From contig NZ_LMUY01000151.1 in assembly GCF_009765685.1 (NCBI RefSeq), positions 62,001 to 126,000 of the forward strand: a DNA stretch of 64,000 nucleotides. The letters run 5' to 3'. Below, one piece after another: positions 45,884-48,575 of the stretch (position 1 is its first letter; each line of letters begins with the position of its first letter). The notes beneath the pieces are model-generated. The model worked only from the letters and a program-made list of their open reading frames with translations, did no database searches and was not told the DNA's origin. This stretch comes from Acidisphaera sp. L21 (lineage in GTDB: Bacteria > Pseudomonadota > Alphaproteobacteria > Acetobacterales > Acetobacteraceae). A program made the translations under genes and the position numbers.

Positions 45884-46569
45884 CGAACTTCAGTCACATC
45901 TAGGTGAACATGGTCGGTGGGCAGCGTTGCAAGCACCGATTCGATCGCTGCCGCAACCTCATCCATCGAGGCCATGCCGTCCAGCGTGTGCAGCCGGCCC
46001 GTTGCCTCGTAATGCGGCAGGATCGGCTTGGTCTGACGGTTGTAGACGTCCAGACGCTCCCGCACGGTTTCCCGGTTGTCATCGGGGCGGCGGATGAAGT
46101 CGGTGGAACCACACACGTCGCACACGCCAGCCTTGGCCGTCGGCTTGAAGGTGTCGTGGTAGCTGGTGCCGCATTTGGCGCAGGTGAACCGGCCAGCGAT
46201 ACGCTCCACTAACGCGGCATCGTCGACCTTCAGTTCGATGACGGCATCAAGTTCGAGCTTCAGCTCCGCCAACATATGGTCCAGCGCCTCGGCCTGGGCG
46301 ACGGTTCGGGGGAAGCCATCGAGGATGAAGCCGTTCGCACAATCCGGCTGGCGCACGCGGTTGGCCAGCATGTCGATGATGATGTCGTCCGAGACGAGGG
46401 CGCCAGACGCCATCACCGCGGAGGCACGCTTGCCGACGTCGCTGCCGGCTGCGACTTCGCTACGCAGCATGTCGCCCGTCGAGATCTGCGCGACGCCATG
46501 CCGCTCCTGCAGCCGCTTCGCCTGGGTGCCTTTTCCCGCGCCGGGCGGGCCGAGCAGGATGAGTTTCAT
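45880..46569 (-). CDS. adk: adenylate kinase
   Basis: Interconverts AMP, ADP and ATP. It has 229 residues of the long-lid type. The P-loop is G-P-P-G-A-G-K-G-T. The lid has a four-cysteine set C-A-K-C and C-D-V-C about 16 residues apart, as in zinc-binding adenylate kinases. The ATG overlaps the secY stop by four bases (ATGA), the conserved secY-adk coupling. Confidence 0.97.
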
Positions 46570-47912
46570 CGAGCCCTCCCGCGCACCTTCGACTTACGGA
46601 TCAGCCCCTCATACTGGTGCGCCAGCAAATGCGACTGCACCTGCGTCACCGTGTCCATGGTGACCGATACGATGATCATCAGGCTGGTGCCACCGAAATA
46701 GAACGGGACGTTGTAGTTGGCGATCAGAACCTCCGGCAGCAGACAGACCACGCAGAGGTAGAGCGCGCCGATAGTCGTGAGCCGGGTGAGGATGCGGTCG
46801 AAATAGTCGGCGGTGTTGCTGCCGGGGCGAATGCCGGGGATGAAGCCGCCGTACTTCTTCAGGTTATCCGCGGTCTCCTGCGGGTTGAACACCACGGCGG
46901 TGTAGAAATACGAGAAGAAGATGATCATGCCCGCGTAGAGCGCGAGGTATAGCGGCTGGCCATGGGCCAACTCCGTCGACAGCCAGCCAAGGATGGAGTT
47001 GGGGTTGCTCTGCCCGAAGCCGGCGATCGTCGCGGGGATCAGCAGGATCGAAGAGGCGAAGATCGGCGGGATGACGCCGGCGGTGTTCACCTTCAGCGGC
47101 ATGTGGGTCGAATCACCGCCGAACATGCGTTGGCCGACCTGGCGTTTGGGGTATTGCACCACGATCCGCCGCTGCGCCCGCTCCATGAACACGATGAAGG
47201 CGATGACGGCGACGGCGATCACCACGAAGGCGAGGATGAACACCGGCGACAGCGCGCCGGTGCGGCCCAGATCCAGCAGGGTGACGAGCGCGTGCGGCAG
47301 ATTGGCCACGATGCCGGCGAAGATGATGAGGCTGGTGCCGTTGCCCACGCCACGGGCGGTGATCTGCTCGCCGAGCCACATCAGGAACATCGTCCCGCCG
47401 GTCAGCGTCACGACGCAGGAGAGGCGGAAGAACAGGCCGGGGTCCAGCACCGCGCCTAGGCCTGCCCGGTCGTGGAATGCCTCCAACCCGACGGCGATCC
47501 CGTAGGACTGGAAGATCGCGATCAGCACCGTCAGGTAGCGAGTGTATTGGTTCAGCTTCTTGCGGCCGCTCTCGCCTTCCTTCTTCAGGGATTCGAGCGA
47601 GGGGATCGCCGCCGACATCAGCTGCACGATGATCGAGGCACTGATATACGGCATGATGGTGAGCGCGAAGACCGTCATGCGGCTGAGATTGCCGCCGCTG
47701 AACATGTCGAACATGCCCAGCACGCCGCCGCCCTGCTCCGTCATGGCGTGGCTCATCACGGAGCCGTCGATGCCGGGCACCGGCACGTAGCTGCCGACGC
47801 GATAGACAATAAGAGCACCAAGGGTGAACCAGATCCGGTTCTTCAACTCGGTGGCCTTGCTGAAGGCACCGAGGTTCATGCTGCCAGCCATCTGCTCGGC
47901 GGCCGAAGCCAT
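46566..47912 (-). CDS. secY: protein translocase subunit SecY
   Basis: Pore-forming subunit of the general secretion translocon in the inner membrane. It has 448 residues and ten membrane helices, from ATG at 47912 with a GGGGGAT-like site. N-R-I-W-F-T-L-G near 25 opens the first helix, and [12 protein letters not shown] and I-P-G-I-R-P-G are typical. The open frame upstream of 47912 is spurious. Its upstream spacer contains four palindromes. Confidence 0.97.
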
Positions 47913-47977
47913 ACGTCTATCCCCCAAGAACCCTCGGCATATAGTGTGCCGTGCGGATCGTTCTACGTGCAAGTCTC

Positions 47978-48086
47978 TGGGGGACACGCCCCCACGCCAC
48001 AACCGAAGGGTACTACCCTTCGGAAGCCTGGAATAAGGGGTGCCGGGGACTTACGCCCCCGGCCGGGATCAGGGGCGCCGCCCCTG
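47978..48086. repeat. four consecutive palindromes in the rplO-secY spacer
   Basis: Four hairpin-forming inverted repeats stand one after another: TGGGGG/CCCCCA (47978-47994); a perfect CCGAAGGGTA/TACCCTTCGG around one base (48003-48023); GCCGGGG/CCCCGGC (48042-48063); and CAGGGGC/GCCCCTG (48070-48086). The 177-bp spacer is unusual in an operon whose other junctions are a few bases. None is followed by a T-run in the minus direction, so they are not simple terminators. They may be a repetitive extragenic element, an mRNA processing or stability site, or a partial attenuator. Confidence 0.75.
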
Positions 48087-48089
48087 CCC

Positions 48090-48575
48090 TCATGCTGCGA
48101 CTGGCGCAGCCTTTTCGGCGACCGTCGTGGTCACTTTGCCGCCCGCCGCCTCGACCGCCGCCTTCGCGGAGGCTGACGCACCGGAAACAGTGACGGTGAT
48201 CGCGCGACCGATGACGCCGCGCGCAAGCAGCCGAACGCCGGCGACCCGTGCCAGGCGAACCAGCCCAGCCTTCTCCAGCGACTTCTCGTCGATCGACCCG
48301 GCGTCCAGCTTGCCGGCCTCTATCGCCTTGTCGATGGTGCCGAGGTTGATCGGCGCATATTCCGTGCGGAAGATGTTCTTGAAGCCGCGCTTCGGCAGAC
48401 GCCGATAGATCGGGAGCTGACCGCCCTCGAACCCATTCAGCGATACGCCCTCACGCGCCTTCTGACCCTTGACGCCCTTGCCGGACGTCTTGCCCTTGCC
48501 GGACCCGATGCCGCGGCCAACGCGCTTGAACTTCAGGCGTGAGCCGGGGTTGTCCCGTAGTTCGTTGAGCTTCAC
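48090..48575 (-). CDS. rplO: 50S ribosomal protein L15
   Basis: Large-subunit assembly protein. It has 161 residues, with the glycine-rich start [12 protein letters not shown] and [15 protein letters not shown]. The ATG overlaps the rpmD stop by four bases. The alanine-rich C-terminus is normal for alphaproteobacteria. Confidence 0.97.

Follow-up and report, generated by a model that had tools for sequence, protein, structure and literature searches.

What are the four palindromes that lie between rplO and secY in Acidisphaera sp. L21, and do they belong to this gene border or to the genome at large? The window analyzed here is a stretch of 64,000 nucleotides in which rplO, encoding ribosomal protein L15 (48090-48575), and secY (46566-47912) are both carried by the minus strand. 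A first-pass annotation had noticed four hairpins within 47978-48086, and all four palindromes were recovered exactly at these positions. Read in the direction of transcription, arm 1 (48070-48086) has a perfect stem of 8 bp with a centre of 1 nt, arm 2 (48042-48063) a perfect stem of 7 bp that further inner pairs lengthen in the predicted structure, arm 3 (48003-48023) a perfect stem of 10 bp and arm 4 (47978-47994) a perfect stem of 6 bp, where the alignment to our models is least confident. All four lie on the minus strand, as do the left side of a central linker (48024-48041), which reads ACCCCTTATTCCAGGCTT and is aligned with near sequence in other copies of the same genome, and its right side (47995-48002), placed by the fold and the model alignment. 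The whole four-armed element occupies 47971-48090 of the minus strand, its matches to the covariance models R1 and R2 described below spanning 47971-48089 and 47973-48090, respectively. On the transcribed minus strand, it measures 119 nt and starts at the first base 3' of the rplO stop codon. The remaining spacer (47913-47970, minus strand) leads to secY, whose start lies about 60 nt beyond the element.

The minus strand of 47971-48089 is predicted to fold with -69.0 kcal/mol (z -3.36), a stability equalled by one of 200 dinucleotide shuffles and by one of 639 windows of the same length sampled across the 64 kb. The first-pass annotation had described a spacer interrupting an otherwise tightly packed operon: its hairpin content is indeed special, but its length is usual, the median rplO-secY spacer in relatives being 126 nt (99 distinct spacers). 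The remark that these hairpins do not look like terminators agrees with our search for a GC-rich stem followed by a U-tract, which returned no match in the spacer. No Rfam family reached its gathering score in the window, and copies of the element gave sub-threshold Rfam matches only, mostly miRNA-like ones to a long palindrome. The plasmid records searched gave nothing accounting for the element. The motif AGGGGCNNNGCCCCT occurs once in the window against 0.01 expected, and GGGGNNNNNCCCC by itself is at chance level (three occurrences against 3.5 expected).

The annotation had further suggested a repeated extragenic element. A BLAST search of the spacer against its own genome (G000; 6.38 Mb in 162 contigs) gave no strong second copy and only the self match was convincing. 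The spacer was at first read as unique in the genome; this reading was wrong, since covariance models recover further copies that BLAST misses because they share structure more than sequence. Counting copies of the palindromes, as had been proposed, proved too narrow for the family: a loose pattern of AGGGGCNNNGCCCCT finds three places, two of which are built alike, one behind rplS and one between rpoB and rpoC. The rpoB-rpoC copy is well kept and lies on the same contig (G000:C101:126299-126414, corresponding to 64299-64414 in window coordinates), about 300 bp past the right end of the window. Independently, a stretch with several hairpins of similar kind was found in the rplO-secY spacer of a relative, G118, and this stretch is repeated in that genome with 41 scored matches. 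A half-palindrome pattern gave 276 matches in G118 (146+130) against one in the reversed control and 7+3 matches in the own genome against none in the reversed control; two of the latter ten are tRNA T-arms and were dropped.

Three covariance models were used. R1 was built from three own-genome and nine G118 copies and R2 from eight own-genome copies, both without the window copy, which is included in R3. R1 scores the window element at 45.2 bits (E 9e-6), the next best match in the 64 kb reaching 17.5 bits, and R2 scores it at 55.5 bits (E 7.4e-9 in its own genome). The plus-strand scores are nearly as high (44.5 bits with R1, 49.7 bits with R2) because the element is nearly symmetric. Over the own genome, R2 produced 71 strand matches merging to at least 32 distinct places at E<0.01, of which eight are its own training copies; with the best 150 candidates scored per genome, such totals are minimum values. 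Among the own copies with weaker scores (E 1e-5 to 0.01) there are half-elements, and some of these matches may be due to chance. Own-genome copies are 57-67% identical to the window copy and alike in architecture, the window element matching them in arm order, linkers and length. In a sequence-only alignment of the window copy with eight own copies, no dinucleotide shuffle out of 300 reached the score for seven of them, and three out of 300 did so for the eighth. The window copy lacks the arm cores GGACAGTCGTCC and GGACGACTGTCC that are typical of arms 2 and 3 in own-genome copies, and its arm 4 aligns poorly; the missing GGACAGTCGTCC core and the poor fit of arm 4 speak against membership of the family. 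In arms 2 and 3, the core sequence differs and the pairing is kept, which describes a core variant with the four-arm architecture intact. The view that the spacer holds a repeated element of this genome thus finds support in the number of places and in the recovery of the window copy by models that exclude it, and the window palindromes are very probably one diverged copy of a dispersed four-armed element. That they are unrelated, ordinary hairpins resembling the family merely through GC-richness and folding is very improbable: the lack of a strong second copy by BLAST and the presence of some hairpin in the rplO-secY spacer of many relatives would fit, and the scores of the held-out models, the shuffle tests and the equality of arm order, linkers and length with the own copies argue against it.

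In either direction, the element is ordered as arm 1, GACCC, arm 2, ACCC-linker-GGT, arm 3, GGGTC and arm 4. Arm 4 is roughly the reverse complement of arm 1, as arm 3 is of arm 2, and the element of about 115 bp is therefore an inverted pair of half-units, each consisting of a hairpin, GACCC and a second hairpin, disposed around a short linker so that both strands look nearly alike. Half-elements are also found among the copies. In the alignment of eight own copies (A4), 92.5% of cells are paired in the four-arm structure, and its covariation score exceeds those of all 500 shuffles and of all slid versions; the measure of further pair types did not exceed the shuffles (396 of 500). In a larger alignment (A8; 51 rows, both strands), 95.6% are paired and 28 of the 35 pairs have changed on both sides, counts that are biased towards the structure as this alignment was fitted to a model. 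A single long hairpin was considered as the kept structure and rejected, with 75.7% of cells paired on A4 and covariation at the level of shuffles. Four separate arms are kept via compensatory changes. Own copies are four-armed; among G118 copies, near-perfect palindromes of 105-107 bp occur (L207 1421-1525, L240 1501-1607), and some G118 copies have an extra central hairpin. The loops of arms 2 and 3, AGTC and GACT (A4 columns 37-40 and 80-83), are complementary and nearly invariant. These two arms of the own copies could kiss via their complementary 4-nt loops, which offer no variation to compare.

The copies lie preferentially at the 3' ends of genes. Genes were called with our own codon-usage script rather than taken from an annotation, and the own-genome set of 35 places includes three with E>0.01 (0.013, 0.17 and 0.77) and leaves out two fragment matches (E 1.8 and 5.4). 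Twenty-three of these places are convergent, 11 co-directional, none divergent and one at a contig end. The background of 424 gene pairs, from the window and 20 further stretches, comprises 61 convergent, 299 co-directional and 64 divergent pairs (15, 75 and 56, respectively, for gaps of at least 80 bp), making the convergent excess of own-genome copies highly significant (Fisher p 4e-11). In G118, 36 copies divide into 10 convergent, 25 co-directional, no divergent and one at an edge, and 20 elements from other genomes into eight convergent, nine co-directional, no divergent, two at an edge and one inside a called gene; these two counts exclude repeat views of one element, copies at or near contig ends and a second match in L138. 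Over all sets, the 86 copies with two called neighbours are co-directional in 45 cases, convergent in 41 and divergent in none. Of the 57 stop codons that adjoin own-genome elements, 36 fall within -10 to 15 nt of the element edge, and many of the others belong to half-elements into which the gene reads. For co-directional copies in other genomes, the upstream stop falls within the same range in 25 of 34 and the downstream start in four of 34. The element is tied to gene ends and not to gene starts. Own co-directional copies include those at rplO/secY, rpoB/rpoC, atpG/atpD and rplS/leuC. A ksgA-like open reading frame reads through a half-element at L266 2057-2177 (G000:C121:42956-43076), where its last residues, EDDRPLDTLG, are encoded, and several other reading frames likewise end in a half-element. 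G118 copies also occur at contig ends (L127, L130, L142, L148, L152 and others); element copies probably break assemblies, leading to underestimated copy numbers.

Named relatives of the window RplO are mostly from Acetobacteraceae, and we therefore take the surveyed family to be Acetobacteraceae. With R3 at E<=1e-5, the element was found in at least 46 of 120 genomes and at least 45 of 102 family genera, the best 31 candidates being scored per genome, so that counts are lower bounds and absence is a weak statement. Some genomes have only one to four R3 matches and several have at least 30; within a single genus (g33), G118 has at least 30 and G032 seven. At the rplO-secY site itself, 110 rplO loci were searched, our own included, and only our own genome and G118 carry the element at E<0.001; two other spacers (L032 and L125), at 22.5 and 17.2 bits in the R3 search, are doubtful cases. 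Such a distribution makes it plausible that the element entered the operon, as had been proposed. Among g33 genomes in which the site was examined, G118 alone has the element there and the others have a different hairpin or none, so that no clean insertion border and no target duplication is shown. The longest direct repeats flanking eight full copies measure 3-4 nt, which is at chance level. The rplO-secY spacers of relatives are often folded, with z<-2 against mononucleotide shuffles in 50 of 94 for the first 80 nt and in 52 of 94 for the last 80 nt; in contrast to many of them, the last 80 nt of the window spacer show no excess of folding (z -0.4). The element is not required at rplO-secY, where relatives lack it and many have other hairpins. 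Shortly before secY, a GGCGCC..GGCGCC hairpin was observed by a strict pattern in 32 of 99 distinct relative spacers (for example L048, L058 and L103), and in Acetobacter it is followed by a T-run. This hairpin seems absent in the window, Rfam matched no family in 20 relative rplO-secY loci, and in these relatives it may be a secY leader.

A protein of 200-220 amino acids could be connected with the spread of the element. The own genome gave 16 hits, which amount to 15 copies (loci L302 and L305-L319, on G000 contigs C155, C70, C67, C118, C75, C85, C135, C37, C101, C83, C100, C1, C134, C96 and C114), and the protein was also found in two of 119 other genomes searched. No Pfam, NCBIfam or PHROG family scored above cut-off, no solved structural relative was found, and the predicted model is all-helical with low confidence (pTM 0.35). 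Five of the 15 gene copies adjoin elements, far above the estimate obtained from 33 elements and 6000 genes, both assumed round numbers. On C155 and C118, an element flanks the gene on either side within an 835-bp homologous block, one of the C118 elements having an E of 0.77. This adjacency makes the protein a possible partner of the element, as a lead only.

What might such an element do at the end of rplO? We give an even chance to the reading that it is a REP/BIME-like repeat acting as a portable structure for mRNA 3' ends, in this case that of rplO, and are tentative, at slightly under even, about the mechanism alone, an action at the RNA level at the 3' end of a gene. The element would be transcribed with rplO, at its end. 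Its first stem, within a few nucleotides of the stop codon, would be in reach of the terminating ribosome and could slow its release, while the stable 3' structure would block 3'-to-5' exonucleases and thereby shield the upstream RNA. In this way, rplO and the preceding genes would have an mRNA life of their own, apart from that of secY-adk, with read-through into secY. The first-pass annotation had proposed that the element could set the secY/adk level. Its position favours a role at the rplO 3' end because co-directional copies hug the upstream stop and rarely the downstream start. The two thirds of own copies that are convergent speak against a 3'-end role, as a shared terminator or a role in supercoiling fits them equally.

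Several other explanations compete with this one. The element may be a passive or selfish repeat that spreads, through some enzyme or by recombination, and survives only where it is harmless just 3' of stop codons, with no effect on rplO or secY, which is less probable but credible. Copy number varies widely within one genus (276 half-palindrome matches in G118, and the unequal R3 counts of G118 and G032), only G118 among the g33 genomes has the element at this site, and a third of the paralogs of the lineage-restricted protein (5/15) adjoin copies, all as expected of a passive repeat. However, pairing kept through so many compensatory changes suggests structural selection, although selection for mobility would have the same effect, and promoter-bearing gaps of non-essential genes would tolerate insertion, yet none of 86 copies is divergent. 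A site acting at the DNA level, which would bind gyrase or a nucleoid protein and relieve supercoiling at gene ends in the manner of E. coli BIMEs, for which binding of gyrase and IHF is characteristic, is unlikely. It would account for the near-symmetry of both strands and for the strong excess between convergent genes, where positive supercoils meet, and E. coli REPs are described as gyrase targets in a passage of PMC3733652; an RNA accounts at least equally for the exact placement against stop codons and for separate arms that contain G-U pairs, and genomes with one to four matches could hardly depend on the element.

The operons rpoB-rpoC and atpG-atpD must be read through. Copies sit inside both, which makes strong or full termination unlikely and tells against a transcription terminator or attenuator lowering secY-adk, which would act in both directions where genes converge; the convergent excess and the strong hairpins would suit it, the missing U-tract would not, and we rate it a shade below the DNA-level site. 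A cis-regulatory RNA of secY, for instance a ribosomal-protein binding site, is the least probable of these readings. The hairpin conserved near the secY start of relatives would suggest it, but this is a different feature from the element, which abuts rplO and not secY, whose other copies follow unrelated genes with no link to secY, and which no Rfam family fits. Returning to the portable 3'-end structure, its most extended form is improbable as a whole: a family-wide four-armed 3'-end class, without RAYT and of neither GTAG nor CGTC type, would provide exchangeable mRNA-end modules behind stop codons, even in rpl, rpoBC and atp operons, with a spread tied to the 15-copy all-helical protein.

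The element was overlooked by plain BLAST and is located in the most conserved operons of the cell. It would represent an untagged four-armed REP relative in at least 45 of the 102 family genera sampled, despite the CGTC type being reported as missing from Acetobacteraceae in a passage of PMC3733652. How palindromes at 3' ends affect mRNA lifetime and the release of ribosomes is a long-open question. Related genomes offer a natural experiment on it, since a given gene border has the element in some of them and lacks it in others, so that this effect is directly testable.

Our literature search turned up no account of the present element in Acetobacteraceae. The family is not among the terms found in PMC2267715 and PMC6006769 by a term search, and palindrome counts for one of its members, Lichenicola cladoniae, are given in PMC12306157, whose relevant passages present no comparable family. 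MITEs resemble the element in being small, non-coding and dispersed with terminal inverted repeats; the direct repeats flanking its eight full copies do not exceed 3-4 nt, and no cognate transposase was identified by a search with PF01797. The integron attC end pair, RYYYAAC ... GTTRRRY, was found in none of the eight full copies. Among REP classes, the GTAG tag occurs at one of 32 arm positions in eight own copies, and the CGTC tag outside the hairpin at none of 32, CGTC being present inside arm 2 only. RAYT (Y1_Tnp, PF01797) was found in neither G000 nor G118 and in one of eight genomes searched (G032), the control being positive in 5 of 14. Since tags and RAYT were tested with these outcomes, we do not file the element as a GTAG or CGTC REP. 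In the passages of PMC3733652 devoted to the alphaproteobacterial, RPE-like CGTC REPs, these share with the element arms of 8-9 bp, 4-nt loops as in arms 2 and 3, inverted dimers and the lack of a known dedicated transposase, and the preference for convergent and co-directional gaps is described there for both GTAG and CGTC REPs. According to the same source passages, E. coli REP/BIME and GTAG REPs are likewise short palindromic units, often in inverted pairs, situated in co-directional or convergent gaps near or overlapping stop codons and now and then translated as the C-terminus of a protein. In a passage of PMC12306157 citing Liang et al. 2015, translation is reported to be lowered by E. 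coli REPs that lie at most 15 nt from a stop codon, and the element resembles REPs that slow ribosomes near stops (Liang, Rudd and Deutscher 2015, cited in the same passage) in having a stem at most about 15 nt from the stop. Its copies are dispersed palindromes at the 3' ends of co-directional or convergent genes, as in REPs, and its two inverted half-units alternate in orientation, as in BIMEs. Judged by analogy, the element works like a REP/BIME, from which it differs in having a double hairpin as its unit and four arms over a total of about 115 bp, with heavy turnover of the sequence and kept pairing.
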